DNA of 64,000 nucleotides from Vulcanimicrobiota bacterium (GCA_019637395.1 JAHBVR010000005.1:1-64000), one strand, 5' to 3'. Shown: positions 2,056 to 12,263, counted from the first letter of the stretch. Made by a program: numbers and translations. The notes: generated by a model not told the origin, from the sequence alone.

Positions 2056-2625
2056 GTGCGTAAAGGGGACATCACCAAGCAGTTGATCGTAACTGGGGCT
2101 TTGAAAACCGTCGAAGAAATCGGCCTGGAGGCTCTGACCTTCGCTCCTCTGGCGGCTCAACTGGGGATATCTAAAAGCGGTATCTTTGCTCATTTTAGAA
2201 CGCGTGAAGACTTGTTGAAAGCTGTTCTGGAGCGGGCTTCCCAAGAGTTTGTGGATAGCGTGCTCATTCCAGCGGTCAAGGAAAGCCGCGGCCTTCCCCG
2301 GTTGCGCAAGATCTTTCAAAATTGGGTCGATTACTATCAACATGGAAGGCGTCGGATCTTTATTTACGACGGCGGCGCCGGCTCGCTGCGCGATTTCCTA
2401 CGGGACATTCACTACAAATGGGGGCAGGAAATTCAGCGGGCGATCGGTCAGGCTATCGAAGAAGGCGATCTTTCCCCCGGCGTGTGCCCCGAACAACTGA
2501 CCTTCGACCTCTATGGAGCGGTCCTGAGCGCTCACCACTACAAACACATTTTGCGAGATGAGCAAGCTCCGGCGAAAGCCGAAAGAACGTTTGAGCTGCT
2601 ACTTCGGGCTCAAGTCGCCACTTAA
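2056..2625 (+). CDS. TetR/AcrR-family transcriptional regulator
   Basis: A 189-residue one-component repressor-type regulator, typical TetR length. The N-terminal helix-turn-helix is clear around residues 20-55 (LAAQLGISKSGIFAHF followed by RTREDLLKAV). The C-terminal ~130 residues would form the ligand-binding and dimerisation domain. The start is GTG at 2056 (MRKGDITKQLI), since upstream in-frame sequence is short. The 3' end overlaps the convergent XRE gene at 2599 by 27 bases. The TGCGACCGGTCGCA palindromes at 3349 and 10545 are the right size and symmetry for a TetR operator and could be targets; this is inference. The ligand is not predictable. Confidence 0.88.
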   Translation: MRKGDITKQLIVTGALKTVEEIGLEALTFAPLAAQLGISKSGIFAHFRTREDLLKAVLERASQEFVDSVLIPAVKESRGLPRLRKIFQNWVDYYQHGRRRIFIYDGGAGSLRDFLRDIHYKWGQEIQRAIGQAIEEGDLSPGVCPEQLTFDLYGAVLSAHHYKHILRDEQAPAKAERTFELLLRAQVAT

Positions 2626-2961
2626 GCGCTGCAACATTTCTGTCATCAGTTCCAGGCGGCGCTCAACACGGCCGACCCGGCGCAGCAGCACGTCCATCTT
2701 TTCATCCAGGGTCAGGGTGTCCTCGTTCAGCATGGTCGCGGGCGGTTCGCCATGAAACCACTCCCGGCGGCGGCCCAGCGCCCGGCCCAGCAGTTCTTCC
2801 TGCTCGGGGGTCGGAGCGGAGAGATTGGACTCCCAGCGGATGAGGGTGGCTCGATGAATCTTGATTCGCTCCGCCAGTTCGGTTTGGGAAAGTTGTCGTT
2901 CCTGGCGGGCTAAGCGCAAGAGAGAGCCTTGAAAGTTACTTATGCGTCGAGGTCGGGCCAT
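2599..2961 (-). CDS. XRE-family DNA-binding protein, left copy
   Basis: A 120-residue protein with an N-terminal Cro/CI-type helix-turn-helix at about residues 12-55 (RQLSQTELAERIKIHRATLIRWE) and a C-terminal leucine-rich coiled coil (about 85-115) likely for dimerisation. It is a close paralogue of the protein at 10708: both begin MARPRRISNFQG and share WFHGEPP and DEKMDVLL/DEKVDVLL. The ATG at 2961 is fixed by that alignment. It follows the helical protein gene at 3006 on the same strand, as in the right copy, although there the two genes are divergent. A role in controlling the adjacent pseudopilin genes is plausible but unproven. Confidence 0.82.
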   Translation of the reverse strand: MARPRRISNFQGSLLRLARQERQLSQTELAERIKIHRATLIRWESNLSAPTPEQEELLGRALGRRREWFHGEPPATMLNEDTLTLDEKMDVLLRRVGRVERRLELMTEMLQRLSGDLSPK

Positions 2962-3005
2962 TGCCTGTACAAACTACCGGAAAAAAGTGCTTATCCCTGC
3001 CTGCA

Positions 3006-3320
3006 TCAAGGGCCAAGAGTGAATTCTACCAGAAACATGTAGCGATTTAATTCGGAAAAATACCTGTCAATCCGGTCAAACTGATGGTCCATCAGATCCT
3101 GAGTCAGAACTTCGAGCAGGAGAGCCATCTGTTCGTAGTAGCCAGCCACCTCCAGGATGGGAGTCTCACCTTCTATGGCACGTAGCTCATGAGATGTTCG
3201 TAGCATGTCTCGACTGAGTGTTTTACAGTCATCCAGCAACTCGTTGCTTACGAGCCTGCACTTCCGGGCCTCTTGGATATCCCCGGCCAGTTGTTGTAGT
3301 CGTTCTCTTCCTTTGCTCAC
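3006..3320 (-). CDS. Small helical protein, left copy (104 aa)
   Basis: A 104-residue, all-helical soluble protein, probably a four-helix bundle, starting at a GTG (MSKGRERLQQL). Its paralogue at 10200 has the same length and the same GTG start, with shared segments such as DMLRT, EMALLLE and a terminal LGP. The family is not recognised. A perfect 14-bp palindrome lies 28 bases before the start. In both copies this gene neighbours an XRE regulator and pseudopilin genes, so it may be an accessory or regulatory partner. Confidence 0.62.
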   Translation of the reverse strand: MSKGRERLQQLAGDIQEARKCRLVSNELLDDCKTLSRDMLRTSHELRAIEGETPILEVAGYYEQMALLLEVLTQDLMDHQFDRIDRYFSELNRYMFLVEFTLGP

Positions 3321-3348
3321 AAGAGCACCTGAATCTTTCTTGAATATA

Positions 3349-3650: not shown

Positions 3651-3800
3651 ATGCCACCATTGAATACAAACCCTGAAGACCCTGCAGAGCCGGCCACGCC
3701 TCGCAGCCTGGATGATTTTCTGGGCGATTTCGCCAATTGGGACCGTCCCGGCTACGATCTCTTACAAGATCCCAGGCTTCATAGCGACTTTACCCAGTAA
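3651..3800 (+). CDS. Small acidic ORF (49 aa)
   Basis: ATG at 3651 follows GGAGAG at a suitable distance and opens a 49-residue acidic reading frame containing SLDDFLGDFANWDRPGYDLL. Its composition is protein-like, and it overlaps the 3' end of the convergent pseudopilin gene by 22 bases. There is no recognised family. Confidence 0.4.
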   Translation: MPPLNTNPEDPAEPATPRSLDDFLGDFANWDRPGYDLLQDPRLHSDFTQ

Positions 3801-4291
3801 AAACCACTCTGGTTGAGGTTGCATAAAATCGAGCCCGTCCGCACACTCAGGCTAACCTCGAGGCGGCGGTCCGCTCCCAGGCGAGCCTGCATCCCCTCAA
3901 TTTTCTGCGCTAACAGCAGGGGCGTTTGGGAATTCTGGGTGCGGGTCAAGCCTTGGGCCGCCACCTGGTATTGTACCGTCACGCTCCCCTGGTCGGGAGT
4001 CCAGTTGGGTGCTCCCGACGGAAAGCGCGCCTGGCCGGGTTCCACCAGGGTGACGACCAGGCTGGGGGAGCTGGCGCCAATGGCCGGCGAGTTGATAGCG
4101 ATGGCTCCCTGGGCTTCCGCGATCATCATTTGCATGGCATCGTGTGCTTGGAGAATAGCTTCTTCTCGGGTATTCAGACTGGCGTTCCAATTCCCGTAAG
4201 ACTGAAACAGTTGACTTAATACGAGCAGGACCAGGGAGAAGATGGCTATGCTCACCATCACTTCGAAGAGAGTCAAGCCGCGGACTTTCAT
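3779..4291 (-). CDS. GspJ-like pseudopilin, left copy
   Basis: A 170-residue type II secretion/type IV pilus minor pseudopilin. The N-terminus MKVRG-LTLFEVMVSIAIFS is a class III prepilin signal: cleavage after Gly, Glu at +5, then a ~20-residue hydrophobic helix. The globular C-terminal domain aligns along its full length with the 170-residue paralogue at 9193, including VVEPGQ/LVEPGQ, IEGMQARL and a terminal SGFYWV. The start at 4291 gives identical lengths; an upstream extension is rejected. It lies seven bases after the prepilin-propeller gene, so the two are an operon. Unlike the right copy, no GspI-like gene lies between them. Confidence 0.78.
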   Translation of the reverse strand: MKVRGLTLFEVMVSIAIFSLVLLVLSQLFQSYGNWNASLNTREEAILQAHDAMQMMIAEAQGAIAINSPAIGASSPSLVVTLVEPGQARFPSGAPNWTPDQGSVTVQYQVAAQGLTRTQNSQTPLLLAQKIEGMQARLGADRRLEVSLSVRTGSILCNLNQSGFYWVKSL

Positions 4292-4298
4292 GGTAGCC

Positions 4299-6230
4299 TC
4301 AAGGGGAGGAGTTGAGTCCCCATGAGGGGTGGTCCTCCCAGCCGCTGAAGTTGGTGAGCTGCTTGAGCTGGCTGCCATCCCGTTTGACCGAGTAGATGTC
4401 GACGTTGGAGCGGTTCACCTGGCGGCAGAAGAGCAAATGCGTGCTGTCCGGCGACCAGGTGGGGTAAAAGCAACCCGTTTCTGTGCCGGGCACCGTCGTC
4501 ATGCTGCCGGCTGCACCGTTCCAGGGTCCGACCTGAATGCCCGCCGTGCTGACGCAGGCCACCCAGTGTAGATCCGGGCTGACCGAGACCTGATACTGAT
4601 TGGCAGAGAAAGGGGCGGCGGCAGAGCCGTCCAGGAAGAAGCGCCTCAGGTCGAAGTCCATATTGCCGGCCAGCAGGAATTGGGCGGCGGAGTTGGCCGG
4701 GTTGTAGGGGAGGATACCGTTCCAGCTCCATTCGGTAGGGACCACTTGATCGGTGGGGGAGGGCTGATCGATTTTCCCCAGGTGCTGCAGGCCCGAGCCG
4801 TCAAGGCGGATGAGCCAGATGTCGTGCTGCACCGGGTCGCGAGGAGTTGAAAATAAGATGCGAGTTCCGTCGGGACTCCAGGCGGTCTGCCCACAACTGT
4901 TCCAACCGGGTGCCGGGGCGTCGGCGGCCCGGGTAATCTGGCGGATATGGGAGCCGTCGCTGTTCATCACAAAGAGCTCCGTCTGCCAGCCGGAGCCGAT
5001 ATGACGATTGGAGTTGAAGAGCACTTTGCCTCCATCCGGCGAAATCCGCGGCCAGCTATGGGAGATACCCGGCTCGTCGGTCAACTGAGTGAGGTCGGTT
5101 CCGTCGGAATTCATGGCATAAAGTTCGTGGTTGCCGGTGCGGTCACTGGAGAAAACGATGCGGCCGTCGCCAAGGGCCTGGATGGTGCCGGAAGCTCCCA
5201 GGTGAAGGTCGGTCTGACCACCGCGACCGTCGCTCAGGTGGCAAGTCAACTGGAACTTTTCTCCGTCGGCCGTGTCCGGCGGAGGGGACCAGCTCCACTC
5301 CGCCCGCCATTGCCCGTCTTTCCAGGTCATGGGGAGTTGGCATGGATGAGACAGTCCCCCACCCCGGTCGCAGGACCATTCGATCTGCAAAGGGTCGCCG
5401 TCGGCATCTTCGGCGCTGACCTGCAAGGTGAGCAGGCCACCGACCCGGCAGGTGGCGTCCACGCCCGGCGGCAGTTCGGTAGCGGGTGCGGGCACCACCT
5501 CAAGGGTGCCGGTGGGATTCTGGTTGCCCCCTCCGCCGAACAACGGACGGGGGGGAGAACTTTGGGCAGGCCTGGCGCCGACCGGGTTCAGGCTGGCCTC
5601 CGAGGGCTGGTGCAGTCCTTCTTCCAGAGTAATGGCGCCCCCCGGAGTGATGCTGATGGTAATGGGCTGGCCGATCGAGGTCAATTTGAAGGCGGGTTGG
5701 CCGTCCAGGCTGGCCGGCTCGCAGGCAAAGCTCGTCCCCACCAGCAAGCGATAGGCTCCCCCCACCAGGGGCAGCCGTGACAGCGCCTGGCCGCTGGGAG
5801 TGAAGGCAATCACCGCGTCCTCAGGATAGGGAGTAGCCCAGGCGCTCAAGTCGTGATGGCCCTGGGACAGCAAACCGGGCGTGGCCTCGGCGCCGCCCCA
5901 GAAACCTGCCCAAAGATAAGCCCGCGAGCAATTGCCTTCCCAGCGGGTCGAACGTATCGGGCGCGGTCTGGGATTGCCCTCCAGCACATAGCAGGACTGG
6001 GCCCAGGGGCTGCCCTGCCGCGGGAAGCCGAATCCAACCAGGGTCTGTTTGACGGCCGCTTGTGCGCGCACCATTCGCAACTGGGAGAGTACCATCTGAG
6101 CGGCCGAGCGCACGTGGGCCCGGCTGGAGGGTGGACTTTTCAGGGAAACGCCCACCAGCAGCGAGACGAGCAGCATTACGAACATCGCTTCCGCCAGCGA
6201 CCAGCCCCTGCAACTTCTTCTCTTGTTCAT
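4299..6230 (-). CDS. Prepilin N-terminus fused to a TolB-like beta-propeller, left copy
   Basis: A 643-residue protein. Residues ~1-35 are a prepilin leader (RG-WSLAEAMFVMLLVSLLVG; cleavage after Gly, Glu at +5) and the following ~150 residues resemble a GspH/FimT pseudopilin body. A proline-rich linker and an Ig/cadherin-like domain (about 240-345, with DADGDPLQIEW) come next. The C-terminal half holds PD40/TolB-type propeller blades with repeated SPDG and NSDGT motifs (GRIVFSSDRTGNHELYAMN, FSTPRDPVQHDIW). The protein would be anchored in a pseudopilus tip with the propeller displayed outside. Its paralogue at 6462 has exactly the same length and is divergently transcribed from a shared 231-base intergenic region. 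Confidence 0.87.
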   Translation of the reverse strand: MNKRRSCRGWSLAEAMFVMLLVSLLVGVSLKSPPSSRAHVRSAAQMVLSQLRMVRAQAAVKQTLVGFGFPRQGSPWAQSCYVLEGNPRPRPIRSTRWEGNCSRAYLWAGFWGGAEATPGLLSQGHHDLSAWATPYPEDAVIAFTPSGQALSRLPLVGGAYRLLVGTSFACEPASLDGQPAFKLTSIGQPITISITPGGAITLEEGLHQPSEASLNPVGARPAQSSPPRPLFGGGGNQNPTGTLEVVPAPATELPPGVDATCRVGGLLTLQVSAEDADGDPLQIEWSCDRGGGLSHPCQLPMTWKDGQWRAEWSWSPPPDTADGEKFQLTCHLSDGRGGQTDLHLGASGTIQALGDGRIVFSSDRTGNHELYAMNSDGTDLTQLTDEPGISHSWPRISPDGGKVLFNSNRHIGSGWQTELFVMNSDGSHIRQITRAADAPAPGWNSCGQTAWSPDGTRILFSTPRDPVQHDIWLIRLDGSGLQHLGKIDQPSPTDQVVPTEWSWNGILPYNPANSAAQFLLAGNMDFDLRRFFLDGSAAAPFSANQYQVSVSPDLHWVACVSTAGIQVGPWNGAAGSMTTVPGTETGCFYPTWSPDSTHLLFCRQVNRSNVDIYSVKRDGSQLKQLTNFSGWEDHPSWGLNSSP

Positions 6231-6369
6231 GAGCTGTGCTTCTCACTCCCGTCCAGAAATTCATGCGACTTCGTGCAACAGTGGACTTCAAGCATTGGTC
6301 ACCAGGTCGAGGTTGTCCTGCATCGGCGGACGGATGTTCGACTTGTTGTTGCATTAACGATTTTTTTGA

Positions 6370-6399
6370 TTGACTCGTAGGGTGCCGCTCACTTAGAAT
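6370..6399 (+). promoter_or_regulatory. Sigma-70-like promoter candidate
   Basis: TTGACT at 6370-6375 and TAGAAT at 6394-6399 are separated by 18 bases, upstream of the right-hand prepilin-propeller gene. Confidence 0.35.
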
Positions 6400-6412
6400 C
6401 GTTGACGTATCT

Positions 6413-6438
6413 GTTGCTGCGACCTGAGTAGCAGCAAC
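6413..6438 (+). promoter_or_regulatory. 5'-UTR hairpin before the prepilin-propeller gene
   Basis: GTTGCTGC and GCAGCAAC form a perfect 8-bp stem with a 10-base loop in the leader, ending 24 bases before the ATG at 6462. It could stabilise the mRNA or modulate translation; there is no T-tract. Confidence 0.35.
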
Positions 6439-6461
6439 AAGAACTGGGGGCGAACCTTTCC

Positions 6462-8393
6462 ATGCGCAATAGAAGACGAATCGGTGGTTGGTCCCTGGTG
6501 GAGACGATATTTGTACTCCTGCTCGTCTCGTTGCTTCTGGCCGTTTCTTTGAAGAGTCCTGCCCCCAGTGGCTCGCACGTGCGGGCTGCGGCTCAAATGG
6601 TGTTCTCTCAATTGTGCCTGGCCCGCGAACAGGCCGTCACCAGGCAGTCTCTGGTGGGTTTTGCCTTCCCTCGGCAGGGGGTTGCCTGGGCCCAGTCGTG
6701 CTACGAACTGCAAGGCGCCCCGCAGCCCCGGCTGCAACGCTCCACCTGCTGGGACAATACCTGCTCTCGCGCTTACCTCTGGGCGGGCTTCTGGGGCGGA
6801 GCGCAGGTCAAGCCGGGTGTGCTGTCTCAGGGCAGCTACGATATAAGCGCCTGGGCAACTCCTTATCCCGAAGATGCCGTGCTGGCTTTTGCGCCAGGCG
6901 GCCAGGCCCTGTCCAGGCTGCCTCTGGTCGATGGCGCTTATCGTCTGGTGCTGGGCTCCGCCTTTACCTGTGAAGCCTCCAGCGTAGACGGCCAACCCGC
7001 CTTCAAGCTGACCTCGGTCCGTCAGCCTATCACTATCAGCATCACTCCAGGGGGCGCCATTACTCTGGAAGAAGGACTGCACCAGCCCTCGGAAGCCAGC
7101 CTGAATCCGGTCACCGCGATTTCGCACCAAAGTTCTCCGCCCCGGCCGTTGCCGCAGGCCTTCAATCAGAACCCCACCGGCACCCTTGAGGTGGTGCCCG
7201 CCCCCGCTACCGAACTGCCGCCGGGCGTGGACGCCACCTGCCGGGTGGGCGGCTTGCTGACGCTAAAAGTCAGCGCCCAGGATCCTGACGGCGATCCTCT
7301 GCATCTCGAATGGTCCTGTGACCGGGGGGGTGGGCTGTCTCATCCGTGCCAACTACCGATGACCTGGAAGGATGGCCATTGGCAGGCAGAGTGGAGCTGG
7401 TCTCCTCCACCGGACACGGCCGATGGAGAGAAATTTCAGTTGACCTGCCGGGTGGCCGACGATCGCGGGGGAGAGCTCCATCTTCATCTGGGGGCCGCCG
7501 GCATCGTTCAAGCCCTGAACGACGGCCGCATCGTTTTCTCCAGCGACCGCACCGGTAACTTCGAACTTTATGCCATGAACTCCGATGGGACCGACCTCAT
7601 TCAGCTCACCAAAGAGCCCGGTATGAATCATCACTGGCCGCGAGTCTCGCCGGACGGGCGGAAGGTGCTGTTCAACTCCAATCGTCATATCGGCTCCGGC
7701 TGGCAGACGGAGCTCTTTGTGATGAACAGCGACGGCTCCCATATCCGACAGATTACCCGGGCCGCCGACGCCCCGGCACCCGGTTGGAGCAGTTGTGGGC
7801 AGACCGCCTGGAGCCCTGACGGGACTCGCATCTTGTTTTCGACACCTCGAGACCCGGTGCAGCACGACATCTGGACCATCCACGCCGACGGCTCGGGGCT
7901 GCAATATCTGGGCCAGATCGATCAGCCCGCTCCCACTGATCAAATCGTACCTACCGAATGGAGTTGGAACGGGGTCATCCCCTATGACCCGGCCAACTCC
8001 GCCGCCCAATTCCTGCTGGCCGGTAATATGGACTTCGACTTGAGGCGCTTTTTCCCGGACGCAAGTGCACCCGAAGATTTCGGATCGAACCGCTATCATG
8101 TGGCAGTCAGTCCGGACCTCCATTGGATGGCCGCTACCGGCACGGCGGGAATCCAGATTTTTCCCTGGACTGGCCTGGCCAACACCACGCCTGTCACGAC
8201 GGTGCCAGGCACAGAAACGGGTTGCTTTTATCCCACCTGGTCACCCGACAGTTCCCGCCTCCTCTTCTGCCGTAGAGTGAGCGCTACGAATGCCGACATC
8301 TACTCGGTTAGACGCGACGGGACCGAGCTCAAGCGGATCACCAACCAGGCCGGCTGGGAAGATCACCCCTCCTGGGCCCTCAATATCCCGTGA
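6462..8393 (+). CDS. Prepilin N-terminus fused to a TolB-like beta-propeller, right copy
   Basis: A 643-residue paralogue of the protein at 4299 with the same architecture: class III prepilin signal (GG-WSLVETIFVLLLVSLLLAV; Glu at +5), pseudopilin body, proline-rich linker, Ig/cadherin-like domain (DPDGDPLHLEW), then TolB/PD40 propeller blades (FSSDRTGNFELYAMNSDGTD, SPDGTRILFSTP). Long stretches are nearly identical between copies, whereas the signal peptide and linker differ more. Its stop overlaps the GTG of the next gene (GTGA), starting an operon of four pseudopilin-type genes. It is probably a tip-located minor pseudopilin presenting a propeller for binding an extracellular ligand; the binding role is inferred from the fold. 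Confidence 0.87.
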   Translation: MRNRRRIGGWSLVETIFVLLLVSLLLAVSLKSPAPSGSHVRAAAQMVFSQLCLAREQAVTRQSLVGFAFPRQGVAWAQSCYELQGAPQPRLQRSTCWDNTCSRAYLWAGFWGGAQVKPGVLSQGSYDISAWATPYPEDAVLAFAPGGQALSRLPLVDGAYRLVLGSAFTCEASSVDGQPAFKLTSVRQPITISITPGGAITLEEGLHQPSEASLNPVTAISHQSSPPRPLPQAFNQNPTGTLEVVPAPATELPPGVDATCRVGGLLTLKVSAQDPDGDPLHLEWSCDRGGGLSHPCQLPMTWKDGHWQAEWSWSPPPDTADGEKFQLTCRVADDRGGELHLHLGAAGIVQALNDGRIVFSSDRTGNFELYAMNSDGTDLIQLTKEPGMNHHWPRVSPDGRKVLFNSNRHIGSGWQTELFVMNSDGSHIRQITRAADAPAPGWSSCGQTAWSPDGTRILFSTPRDPVQHDIWTIHADGSGLQYLGQIDQPAPTDQIVPTEWSWNGVIPYDPANSAAQFLLAGNMDFDLRRFFPDASAPEDFGSNRYHVAVSPDLHWMAATGTAGIQIFPWTGLANTTPVTTVPGTETGCFYPTWSPDSSRLLFCRRVSATNADIYSVRRDGTELKRITNQAGWEDHPSWALNIP

Positions 8394-9196
8394 GGTCAAA
8401 CACCCGCGCACTGAGCTTGATTGAGACCATTCTGGCTCTCTTTTTGCTGTCGGCGTGTTGCCTGATGATGGTGCAGCTCTTCCATCAGGCGGCGCGCGCC
8501 GACCGGCGCAATCAACAAGTGCAGCGCGCCATTCTCCTGGCGGAAAAAACCTTTGCGCAGGTTCGTAGTTGGGCCCGTCAGCCGGCCAATTTTGATTCCA
8601 GCTGGGCCACCTTCAATGCTACCTTCAGCGACCCTGAATTCCCGGGATTTTCGGTGGAGGTGGCCAGCCTGCCGGGGGGTCGTTCTCTGCTCTCTCCCGC
8701 CAGCCGCCTGGAGGCCCCTTATGGGCTGAAAAGCAGACGCCTGGACCGGTTGGTGGTGCCTGTACGCGTCAAAGTGCTGTGGGGGGCCGGACAAAGAGAA
8801 AACGTGACGCTTTTCACTTATTGCGCCGCTCCTGAGCATCCTCTGCCGGCCAACCCCAAAGTGACGGTGGGCAGCCTTCCTTCCGCGCCCCTGAGTTTTC
8901 AAGAGCAGGCCCAGATCACGGCCCGGCTGGAAGACGCTTCCGGCCAGGAAATACCCGGTGTGACCTTTCACTGGTCGCTCATTCCCATGACCGGGAACGG
9001 GCAATTGCGGCCCGATCTGCAAAGCCGCAACGGCCGGGCCATGACGGTGCAGAATCTATGCTACCTCCCCACGGGTCAGGCTGCCGTGATACCCGGAGAG
9101 ACGGCGGTGGCGGTCCAATGCCGCTATCGAGGGCGGATCCTGAGTAACTTTTTGCCCGACGCTCTTCCCGACGAGCGCGTGCGGATGAACCCATGA
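8390..9196 (+). CDS. GspI-like pseudopilin with extra C-terminal domain
   Basis: A 268-residue prepilin starting at GTG 8390, overlapping the previous stop. The signal is RA-LSLIETILALFLLSACC with Glu at +5 and a hydrophobic helix. The first ~150 residues fit a GspI/PilV-type minor pseudopilin. Residues ~155-260 (KVTVGSLPSAPLSFQEQAQI onward) look like an added beta-sandwich, Ig-like domain, making it longer than the usual ~120-130 residue GspI. It has no counterpart in the left copy of the locus. Translation is coupled to both neighbours by 4-base overlaps. Confidence 0.7.
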   Translation: MRSNTRALSLIETILALFLLSACCLMMVQLFHQAARADRRNQQVQRAILLAEKTFAQVRSWARQPANFDSSWATFNATFSDPEFPGFSVEVASLPGGRSLLSPASRLEAPYGLKSRRLDRLVVPVRVKVLWGAGQRENVTLFTYCAAPEHPLPANPKVTVGSLPSAPLSFQEQAQITARLEDASGQEIPGVTFHWSLIPMTGNGQLRPDLQSRNGRAMTVQNLCYLPTGQAAVIPGETAVAVQCRYRGRILSNFLPDALPDERVRMNP

Positions 9197-9705
9197 AAAT
9201 GCGCGCTTTTACCCTCTTTGAGATGATCGTGAGTATGGGTATTTTTTCCCTCTTGCTGCTGATCGTGGGTCAGATGTTTCAAACCTATGCAAACGGTTAC
9301 TCCAAGACAGGCAAAGATGCTGCTCTTCAGGCACGCGAGGCGATTCAGTCGATGCTCACGGAAGTGCAGGGAGCCCTGGCCCTTGCTTCTCCCGCCTTGA
9401 ACACCAGCTCACCGGGCCTGGTGCTGTCCGTGGTTGAGCCGGGGCAGGTGCGCTTTCCCATGGAAGCGGTGACCTGGACTCCCGATCACCAGAGCGTGAC
9501 CGTGCGCTACCAGATCACCAACACGGAAAATTTGATTCGCACTCAAGGTTCGCAAGGGCCGCCGCTCCTGCTTGCTCAATCAATAGAAGGGATGCAAGCT
9601 CGCCTGAGCGTTGACCATCGCCTGGATATCAGCCTGCGGGTACGTATCGGCTCGGTGCTACACCAGGTCAGCCAGAGTGGCTTCTACTGGGTGAGGACAC
9701 AATGA
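9193..9705 (+). CDS. GspJ-like pseudopilin, right copy
   Basis: A 170-residue pseudopilin with prepilin signal RA-FTLFEMIVSMGIFSLLLL (Glu at +5). It aligns full length with the protein at 3779 (VVEPGQ, TWTPD, IEGMQARL, SGFYWV). ATGA overlaps join it to the GspI-like gene upstream and the GspK/PilX-like gene downstream. In type II secretion GspJ helps form the pseudopilus tip with GspI and GspK; the gene order here fits that complex. Confidence 0.78.
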   Translation: MKMRAFTLFEMIVSMGIFSLLLLIVGQMFQTYANGYSKTGKDAALQAREAIQSMLTEVQGALALASPALNTSSPGLVLSVVEPGQVRFPMEAVTWTPDHQSVTVRYQITNTENLIRTQGSQGPPLLLAQSIEGMQARLSVDHRLDISLRVRIGSVLHQVSQSGFYWVRTQ

Positions 9706-10190
9706 GACATAGGGCTTCGACGCTTTTGGCCAGTCTGGCGCTGGTCGCTCTGGTGCTGGTCTTAGGGCTGGCCTTCCTGACTCGCCGTTCAGCCGATTAC
9801 CAGATCGCCAGTCTGCAACTCCATCGAGCCCAGGCGCGCGCGCTCTCCCTGGCCGGCCTCGAAGACGCGCGCGCGAAACTGGACCACGACCTGAACTTTC
9901 CGCCCCCGCTGGAACTTACGCAAAAAACCTTTCATTACGCCGAACTGGTCTACGACCTGGATGAGGTGGGCATTCTCGGATCTTACGAAGTCACCGTGGA
10001 CCAGACCTACAACACAGACCCGTATAGAATCATTACTGTCGAGTCTAACGGGATGTCCGGCTTCCCTTCCCGAGCCAGCTACCGTGTCCAGGCGGAAATT
10101 GATGCTTCTCCCCGGGTCCGAGGTGGAACCGCGGACAATCCGGATTACTGGAAAGTGATCCGGCTGGTGGAGCAATTGCAACCTCAGTGA
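9702..10190 (+). CDS. PilX/GspK-like minor pilin, non-canonical signal
   Basis: A 162-residue protein with an N-terminal hydrophobic helix (LLASLALVALVLVLGLAFL) followed by a polar helix and a small globular domain, the layout of PilX/GspK minor pilins. The signal lacks the Glu at +5 seen in the other pseudopilins, which is characteristic of GspK-type tip proteins. Its start overlaps the GspJ-like stop (ATGA). It is shorter than typical GspK (~300 residues), so PilX-like is the safer name. It ends nine bases before the convergent helical-protein gene. Confidence 0.6.
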   Translation: MRHRASTLLASLALVALVLVLGLAFLTRRSADYQIASLQLHRAQARALSLAGLEDARAKLDHDLNFPPPLELTQKTFHYAELVYDLDEVGILGSYEVTVDQTYNTDPYRIITVESNGMSGFPSRASYRVQAEIDASPRVRGGTADNPDYWKVIRLVEQLQPQ

Positions 10191-10199
10191 CTCCGGGGG

Positions 10200-10514
10200 T
10201 TAAGGCCCGAGCATAGACTCCACCTGAAGCAGGCAGCGTTCCAGCTCGCCCAGGCTCTCCTCAGTATCCTCAAATCGATAGCCCATTAAATCCCTGGCCA
10301 GGCGCTCCAACAGTAGAGCCATCTCTTCAAAGTACTCGGCCGCCTCCAATTCCTGCGGGTCCTCCGCCTGAAGGCGCAGATCATGCGCGGTGCGCAACAT
10401 GTCCTGGAACAGCACCTTACACTCTTCAACCACCTGGCCGCCCAGGACCCCCCGGGTTCGGATTTCTTCGATATTCTTGGTCAGCCGGCTAAGCCGATCT
10501 CTTCCTTTGCTCAC
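10200..10514 (-). CDS. Small helical protein, right copy (104 aa)
   Basis: A 104-residue helical protein, paralogous to the one at 3006 (shared MSKGR start, DMLRT, EMALLLE, DLM, terminal LGP; roughly 45 percent identity by eye). The start is the GTG at 10514 by analogy with the left copy; an upstream ATG would add 15 residues across the conserved promoter area. The TGCGACTGGTCGCA palindrome lies 30 bases upstream. It is divergent from the XRE gene at 10708. Function is unknown. Confidence 0.62.
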   Translation of the reverse strand: MSKGRDRLSRLTKNIEEIRTRGVLGGQVVEECKVLFQDMLRTAHDLRLQAEDPQELEAAEYFEEMALLLERLARDLMGYRFEDTEESLGELERCLLQVESMLGP

Positions 10515-10544
10515 AAGTATCCCCAAAAATTTTTTGTAACATAA

Positions 10545-10558
10545 TGCGACTGGTCGCA
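10545..10558. promoter_or_regulatory. Palindromic operator-like site, right copy
   Basis: TGCGACTGGTCGCA differs from the perfect palindrome at 3349 by one central base and occupies the same position relative to the paralogous gene (30 versus 28 bases before the GTG). Confidence 0.52.
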
Positions 10559-10707
10559 CTTTTTTTCTTTAAGAGGTGTTAGCCGTCTGGCTCTGACTTA
10601 AACCCTTTTTTTGCAACTTGCAGGTCAGCTTGTCGCTCAAATTGCCAGGGGCCCCATCCTCCTGACGAAAAGGGATATGCCGGCTTCCCCGATAATCTGA
10701 CAGAGCA

Positions 10708-11076
10708 ATGGCCCGCCCTCGACGCATAAGTAACTTTCAAGGTGCTCTCTTGCGCCTGGCCCGCCAGCAGCGCCAGATATCTCAAGCTGAACTGGCGGAA
10801 CGGATCAAGGTTCATCGCGCTACGCTGATCCGTTGGGAGTCCAATCTGTCCGCACCGACGCCGGAACAGGAGAAGCTGTTAGGTGGAGTTCTAGGACGCA
10901 GTCAGGAATGGTTTCACGGCGAGCCTCCCATGCAACTGGTCGATGAAGACACCTTGACTACCGATGAGAAGGTAGACGTATTGCTGAGCCGCCTGAGCCG
11001 AATCGAACGCAGGCTTGAGTTCCTTGCCGAACTCTTGCAGAAGAACCTGGAGAACTCGACGGCCACACATCGGTAG
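10708..11076 (+). CDS. XRE-family DNA-binding protein, right copy
   Basis: A 122-residue paralogue of the protein at 2599, with the helix-turn-helix at about residues 12-55 (ISQAELAERIKVHRATLIRWE) and a C-terminal coiled coil (VLLSRLSRIERRLEFLAELL). The ATG at 10708 begins the conserved MARPRRISNFQG. Short blocks upstream also resemble the left copy. It lies 23 bases before the GspF-type gene, so it may be co-transcribed with it. Confidence 0.82.
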   Translation: MARPRRISNFQGALLRLARQQRQISQAELAERIKVHRATLIRWESNLSAPTPEQEKLLGGVLGRSQEWFHGEPPMQLVDEDTLTTDEKVDVLLSRLSRIERRLEFLAELLQKNLENSTATHR

Positions 11077-11099: not shown

Positions 11100-12263
11100 T
11101 TGAAATCAGGTGAAGTCCTGATTGTGCCCAGCTCTTCGCCGGGGGGCGACCTGCCCTCCCAAGCCGAACCTTACAGGCTGCGGTCTGGTCTGAATTCGCA
11201 AGACTGGATGAACACGGTACGTCTGCCGCGAAGCGAGGTGGTCAACTTCACCCGCCAACTGCAGGTGCTGTTCGCCAGCGGAGTGCCCATTGCTCGCGCC
11301 ATCGAAGTACTGGCCGAGCAGTCTCATCCGGCCAACGCCTGTGAAGTCTTTTTCAGCCTGCAACGATTGGTCCTGGAGGGACGTTACCTGTCGTCGGCTC
11401 TGACTCGCTTTCCGGCCATCTTCTCGCCCATGTATATCGGGCTGGTCAAAGTGGGCGAGCAGACCGGGCAGTTAGTGATCAGCCTGGCCCTGCTGGTGGA
11501 TTGGCTGGAGCACGAGCAGGAAGTCCTGCAAAAAATTCGCGCGGCCCTGATCTATCCTACCACGGTGGTGATGGTGGCCGTCCTGGCCGCTTTCTTGCTG
11601 GTCAACCTGTTGGCCCCGGGATTTTTGGAAATGTTCGCCAGGGACGGCACGCCCTTACCCTGGCCCACGCTGGTGGTTTCCGAGCTGGTGAAAGTTCAAC
11701 GCCAGCCCTGGTTCTGGCTGGCCCTGAGCGCCGGGACGATTCTGATGGTGCGGGCCGCTCGCTCTTGGGCGCTCAATCCACACTGGCGATTGTCGGTCTG
11801 GCAACAGGTGATTGCGTTGCCGGGGCTGGGGGGGATGTTGTCGGCGGCTACCTGGTCGCGCTTCTGCGCCGCTCTCTCGATTCTGTCCGCCTGTGGCGTG
11901 CCTCAGCAGCGTGCCTTCCGATCCGCGGCTGAGGTTAGCGGTGACCCTCGCCTGATCATCGATAGCGATTTGTTGGTGAGATCCCTGCTGGATGGAGAAG
12001 CTGTCTGGGTGTACATGCACCTGAAGCCCGAGCTTTATCCGCGCCTCCTTGCTTCTTCGCTGGAAGTGGCCGGCGATACCGGCCAGTCCAAGCCGGTGCT
12101 CGATCATCTTGCCCGTTTCTATCGAGAGGAACTGGATGTTCGCCTACAGGTTCTGCAGAGTCTGATTGAACCTCTGTTACTGATCACCGTCTCGGGCGTG
12201 GTTCTTTTCCTTAGCCTGGCGTTGATTCTACCTCTGTACGGCAGCCTTCAGGAAACCATCTGA
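11100..12263 (+). CDS. GspF/PilC-type inner-membrane platform protein
   Basis: A 387-residue type II secretion/type IV pilus platform protein. Two T2SSF repeats are visible: the first around residues 47-170 (FTRQLQVLFASGVPIARAIEVL, VKVGEQTGQL), the second around 250-380 (FCAALSILSACGVPQQRAF, SLEVAGDTG). Hydrophobic helices occur near 155-175, 195-215 and 360-380. The start used is TTG at 11100; an internal ATG at 11208 is possible because the first ~36 residues are unlike the family. It completes the right copy of the locus; the ATPase, secretin and major pilin are not in this window. Confidence 0.87.
   Translation: MKSGEVLIVPSSSPGGDLPSQAEPYRLRSGLNSQDWMNTVRLPRSEVVNFTRQLQVLFASGVPIARAIEVLAEQSHPANACEVFFSLQRLVLEGRYLSSALTRFPAIFSPMYIGLVKVGEQTGQLVISLALLVDWLEHEQEVLQKIRAALIYPTTVVMVAVLAAFLLVNLLAPGFLEMFARDGTPLPWPTLVVSELVKVQRQPWFWLALSAGTILMVRAARSWALNPHWRLSVWQQVIALPGLGGMLSAATWSRFCAALSILSACGVPQQRAFRSAAEVSGDPRLIIDSDLLVRSLLDGEAVWVYMHLKPELYPRLLASSLEVAGDTGQSKPVLDHLARFYREELDVRLQVLQSLIEPLLLITVSGVVLFLSLALILPLYGSLQETI

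Follow-up and report, generated by a model that had tools for sequence, protein, structure and literature searches.

The window analyzed here is a stretch of 64,000 nucleotides from the genome of a member of Candidatus Eremiobacterota (7.66 Mb, 36 contigs). It contains two divergent ORFs of 643 amino acids, separated by 231 bp and located exactly where an earlier note, made from the sequence alone, had placed them. The ORF on the plus strand is designated copy A and that on the minus strand copy B, and both are referred to as H (Table 1). Copy A is followed by the genes for the minor pilins I, J, and K, in this order, with four bases shared between each gene and the next. A promoter scan of the 231-bp intergenic region gave one sigma-70-like site, on the plus strand, and was uninformative.

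Table 1. Features at the H locus, with positions counted from the first nucleotide of the window
Feature	Coordinates	Strand	Remarks
HTH regulator-like gene, left copy; putative cassette member	2599..2961	-	77% identity to 10708-11076
Minor pilin J of left copy	3779..4294	-	57% identity to 9193-9705
Copy B, H with the architecture of copy A	4299..6230	-	78% identity to copy A; dN/dS ~0.19
Copy A, probable modular minor pilin of FimU/GspH type (H)	6462..8393	+	leader to G9, pilin module to ~212, Ig-like domain 239-342, TolB-like propeller 348-640
Minor pilin I, PilV/GspI-like	8390..9196	+	Glu5 present; Ig-like C-terminal part
Minor pilin J, PilW/GspJ-like	9193..9705	+	Glu5 present
Minor pilin K, PilX/GspK-like	9702..10190	+	no Glu5; best named match GspK
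HTH regulator-like gene, right copy; putative cassette member	10708..11076	+	
PilC/GspF-type platform protein	11100..12263	+	Pfam T2SSF 2e-42; GspF 9e-61

Sequence features of the H proteins

The two leaders, MNKRRSCRG/WSLAEAMF and MRNRRRIGG/WSLVETIF, fit the class III prepilin signal recognized in the earlier note: both are basic, have G at position -1 and E at position +5, and continue into a hydrophobic helix. Glu5 is invariant in the homologues (28/28), and position -1 is G in 23 and A in 5 of them. PD40 of Pfam is significant in both copies (E-values of 1.3e-18 and 2.7e-23), and no Pfam match to the PilY1-type C-terminal propeller (PF05567) was found in either. The GspH model (NCBIfam TIGR01708) matched the N-terminal 74 residues of both copies at 21.9 and 25.5 bits; the cut-off of this model is 80 bits, so that "GspH-type" refers here to the fold and not to an annotated GspH. 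The TolB model (NCBIfam TIGR02800) matched only the propeller of both copies, at 79-82 bits against a cut-off of 343. Among the 28 homologues, at E ≤ 0.01, a GspH match was found in 23, with scores below the model cut-off, and a TolB match in 20.

Predicted structure

The AlphaFold2 model of H, built on 28 homologues, had a mean pLDDT of 80.2 and a pTM of 0.53. The pilin fold, the Ig-like domain, and the propeller proposed earlier are all seen in this model. A long N-terminal helix and the pilin sheet occupy residues 12-205, and the propeller contains a weak stretch near residues 485-540. The best match of the full model in the PDB was TolB (E-value of 1e-15); from this match and the strand pattern, we read the predicted propeller as having about six blades. 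The pilin module modelled alone had a pLDDT of 85.5. Its best ten PDB matches were only Pseudomonas FimU, Vibrio EpsH, and E. coli GspH, at a probability of 1.00 and followed by noise, and the best of these was FimU of type IV pili. Since no other protein appeared among the top ten, the pilin base is of the FimU/GspH type.

H has two features of a modular type IV pilin, namely a class III pilin module at the N-terminus, recognizable by the leader, Glu5, and the FimU/GspH fold, and extra domains from outside type IV pilus biology (PD40/TolB-like propeller and Ig-like domain). A plain TolB or Tol-Pal protein is ruled out by the class III leader, the pilin fold, and the score far under the TolB cut-off, and identity with PilY1 by the domain family and by the signal, which is a class III leader joined directly to the pilin.

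The H family in the genome and the phylum

A scan with the single protein retrieved no relative. With a profile of the pilin module plus the Ig-like domain, at least 13 intact genes were found in the host genome, as long ORFs of about 640-720 residues, together with one broken copy on contig 7. This fourteenth gene (L122:4442-6645; G000:C7:243482-244644, where G000 is the host genome) is split by a frame change and is either a pseudogene or an assembly error; I, J, and K genes and a platform gene adjoin it. Chance ORFs are ruled out by the 14 related genes at these loci and by the dN/dS of 0.19; membership in this family excludes chance for the window pair.

The same profile was used to search 149 genomes of the phylum, with up to 13 candidates scored in each and the counts taken from the matches listed. 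Strong matches over most of the profile were found in at least nine of them, the host included: five belong to one genus (that of the host), and the others to the same family, the same order, the same class (G015), and another family (G026), one each. The domain order, for which a count of homologues had been suggested, thus recurs in at least eight other genomes besides the host. In the remaining genomes, among the matches listed, only the ordinary prepilin N-terminus was covered. The named relatives are two MAGs, Candidatus Eremiobacterota isolate SZAS-1 and MAG_50. In G026, tandem H genes (two long ORFs and a short one that resembles a fragment) lie downstream of genes similar to I, J, and K (L044:5272-10114).

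For most pairs of orthologs, divergence is greater in the propeller than in the pilin module: the identities of the pilin module and the propeller were 0.87 and 0.62, 0.80 and 0.55, and 0.89 and 0.77, respectively. A conserved base with a variable head therefore fits the family.

Minor pilins I, J, and K

When the window pair is counted as one locus and the broken locus on contig 7 is included, there are 13 H loci in the host genome. By our own count, I, J, and K are all recognizable within ~6 kb of H at 11 of these; one of the other two loci (C15) has I and K only, and the other (C31) I only. The H-I-J-K quartet recurs in most clusters, in varying gene order, and none of the 13 aligned K proteins has Glu5. 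The tip-priming complex known elsewhere is PilHIJK, capped by a subunit that lacks Glu5 (PMC10191384; PMC7541494). The corresponding set, I and J with a Glu5-less K beside H, is present at copy A and at most paralogues, but not at copy B.

It should be mentioned that pilin I of the window is long (268 amino acids) and may be modular too, since weak matches to bacterial Ig-like and S-layer domains were found in its C-terminal part. In a sequence search of the PDB, the only matches of pilin I were weak ones to S-layer and MlaC entries, located in the Ig-like part, and pilin K had no match.

Origin of the divergent pair

Comparison of copies A and B gave a dN of 0.14 and a dS of 0.76, and from the ratio of these values both copies appear to be under purifying selection. 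The identity is 80% in the propeller, 87% in the Ig-like domain, 73% in the pilin body, and 67% in the leader and N-terminal helix. The earlier note had described nearly identical propellers with different signals: near identity applies to one 30-codon block of the propeller (97%) and not to the propeller as a whole.

Partners of the right cassette are found on the left side, namely J, the HTH gene, and a small ORF (46% identical), and no counterpart of I, K, or the GspF platform gene was found on the side of copy B. Copies A and B form an inverted duplication that is incomplete, the cassette having been duplicated and partly reduced. The duplicated stretches (2599-3344 and 10200-11076 of the window) take in the HTH gene and the small ORF, whose orientation relative to the cassette differs between the two sides. 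The nearest relative, which belongs to the same genus (G001), has a single H at this locus, convergent with K-J-I and 63-67% identical. This means that the duplication is younger than the split of the two genomes, that conversion took place later, or that one copy was lost in the relative.

Runs of 77 and 44 nt are identical between copies A and B, and over most of the pilin module third-position differences are more numerous than in parts of the Ig-like domain and the propeller. At the level of sequence, these features point to conversion or to selection on the head. The window pair reverses the usual pattern of the orthologs, the heads (0.80) being closer to each other than the pilin modules (0.73), and this argues against two different specificities for the pair. 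The proposal in the earlier note that the pair represents two alternative tip proteins is therefore not upheld: the two are partial duplicates that resemble each other more in the head than in the pilin module, and I and K are missing from the left cassette.

Platform genes and pilus machinery

Of the 13 H loci, 8, including that of the window, have a gene for a PilC/GspF-type platform protein no more than 6 kb away. About one such locus would be expected (P ~4e-6, obtained with an 8.5-kb radius picked post hoc). Over all contigs of the host genome (L084-L093 and L124-L151), 86 T2SSF domain hits were found, which we grouped into ~43 platform proteins. The counts are similar in the closest relatives and the genus, and many small-genome members of the phylum have few. 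Many of the platform genes away from the propeller clusters (L133, L135, L136, L138, L141, L142, L144, and L145) adjoin pairs of small pilin genes, of ~125-150 and 175-230 amino acids, which are apparently a second, smaller kind of cassette.

The genome contains a type IV pilus cluster, PilT-PilC-PilM-PilQ, in which two small unassigned genes occupy the positions of PilN and PilO, and a GspD-GspE-GspF cluster located apart from the H loci. One prepilin peptidase was found, together with three clear secretins and eight near-full-length GspE/PilB-type ATPase matches in addition to partial ones. Neither a secretin nor an ATPase gene was found beside the H clusters at the loci examined. The third secretin gene (L084:9438-11864) stands alone, divergent from a gene for a 526-residue protein that resembles a protein kinase by eye, and no other pilus or secretion genes were recognized alongside. 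PilY1 (PF05567) gave no match in 38 genomes, in a search in which no control genome gave a signal.

Proposed role of the H proteins

We consider it probable (about 0.68) that H is a modular minor pilin belonging to an HIJK tip-priming complex and carries the propeller as a covalent head at the tip. The FimU/GspH fold, the adjoining I, J, and K genes, and the type IV pilus machine in the genome all favor a propeller-headed prepilin whose place is most likely the pilus tip, as the earlier note had supposed. The prepilin peptidase would cleave H after G9. By homology, the N-terminal helix of H would then pack with I, J, and K into a filament-starting complex that is kept at the tip. The Ig-like domain would serve as a spacer between the pilin module and the head, and the TolB-like propeller would be the exposed head that meets a surface, a polymer, or another cell. 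In this arrangement, a tip pilin would itself carry the propeller head, in contrast to PilY1, which is a protein on its own. Copy B would need to borrow I and K, and its head resembles that of copy A.

In the known complexes of type II secretion and type IV pili, H sits below I-J-K. The propeller head may therefore project beside the tip, and the Ig-like spacer could bring it past the cap. The head may act in adhesion, polymer binding, or cargo docking, and a part as adhesin or sensor is conceivable.

The clusters might instead encode minor pseudopilins of a type II secretion system, in which a short pseudopilus in the periplasm is topped by HIJK and the propeller serves in docking or sorting export cargo. 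The best family match of H is GspH, K matches GspK, the platform protein of the window scores highest with GspF, and a GspD-GspE-GspF cluster is present in the genome; moreover, the HIJK sets of pili and type II secretion are interchangeable for piliation (PMC10191384). However, a short pseudopilus would not usually have a 400-residue head on its H subunit, the top structure match of the pilin module is FimU, 13 cassettes stand against three clear secretins, and the H loci examined have neither secretin nor ATPase beside them, which makes this explanation unlikely. It seems very improbable, from the sequence, that the N-terminus of H is a mere membrane anchor or export signal and that the protein stays out of the filament. 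Although many prepilin-like proteins of this phylum are uncharacterized, a full FimU/GspH fold extends past the helix, Glu5 is invariant, and H is linked to three other minor pilins and to platform genes. A plain anchor was the outcome that the earlier note regarded as fatal to its proposal, and it is contradicted by the fold, Glu5, and the gene context.

Decay has to be considered for the window pair, with copy B disappearing and serving no separate purpose. I, K, and the platform gene are missing on the side of copy B, only one copy is present in the relative from the genus, and another H locus of the genome is broken. Nevertheless, copy B is intact across 643 codons, the dN/dS of the pair is ~0.19, and the identical runs of 77 and 44 nt suggest maintenance or exchange. 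Mere decay thus seems quite unlikely.

If the H proteins are modular tip pilins, then a genome with at least 13 of their genes, most of them accompanied by a separate set of I, J, and K and often by a separate platform, is probably able to equip its filaments with different tips. The idea of alternative tips is thus plausible at the scale of the genome. We suggest, tentatively, that the large-genome Eremiobacterota use interchangeable tips at a scale not known elsewhere, each genome having at least a dozen HIJK cassettes that all include a covalent propeller head and often a dedicated platform, and that it is the platform rather than the machine as a whole that selects the tip. Within this reading, selection by the platform would follow from the ~43 platform genes set against one detected prepilin peptidase and three clear secretins.

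Comparison with known systems

Verru_Chthon cassettes are multi-copy in Verrucomicrobia. Two of their prepilin-like proteins, C (TIGR02599) and D (TIGR02596), showed weak N-terminal matches to J and H, respectively. The scores are far below the cut-offs (22 against 256 bits for C, and 21 against 70 bits for D), and profile D, with 196 positions, is too short for a propeller. The literature search found no description of a PD40 propeller on a minor pilin, nor of the Verru_Chthon cassette.

In Myxococcus xanthus, three FimU-PilV-PilW-PilX clusters occur with a PilY1/PilC tip adhesin (PMC7541494). They resemble the present clusters in having four minor pilins and a propeller protein, in occurring several times per genome, and in the lack of Glu5 in K/PilX. 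The propeller protein of M. xanthus, however, is separate, has a type I signal, and is of the PilY1 type, whereas here a TolB-like propeller is fused to the H pilin. The Kil pilus of the same organism, of the Tad type, has four KilLMN tip complexes that are interchangeable on one pilus (PMC12075869). Both systems have several paralogous minor-pilin tip clusters with extra domains; the Kil tips are Tad-type trimers, in four sets and without a propeller, whereas the sets described here are of the HIJK type and many more.

Modular type IV pilins are described in PMC8179133 for Streptococcus sanguinis, in which PilB has a vWA domain and PilC a lectin-like domain. As in H, a domain from outside pilus biology is grafted onto a class III pilin module and is proposed to lie at the tip. 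In H, the head differs, being an Ig-like spacer with a TolB-like propeller, and the carrier is of the FimU/GspH type, encoded with I, J, and K and present at least 13 times per genome. The paper tabulates 264 modular architectures; its main text does not mention PD40.

Modular pilins (PMC8179133) and multiple tip clusters per genome (PMC7541494; PMC12075869) are already established. What appears to be new, as far as the main text of PMC8179133 and the other literature searched show, is the TolB-like propeller head on an H pilin, its occurrence at least 13 times in one genome, and the link with platform genes. Because tips, and often platforms, are encoded here as cassettes open to comparison and to swapping in a laboratory host, the question of what chooses the tip of a pilus can now be tested. 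These cassettes also offer a concrete way to study how an uncultured lineage with a large genome may sense its surroundings or hold on to them. The propeller tip adhesin, as in PilY1, and the modular pilin have hitherto been separate ideas; in the H proteins they are united in one polypeptide, at least 13 times in one genome.
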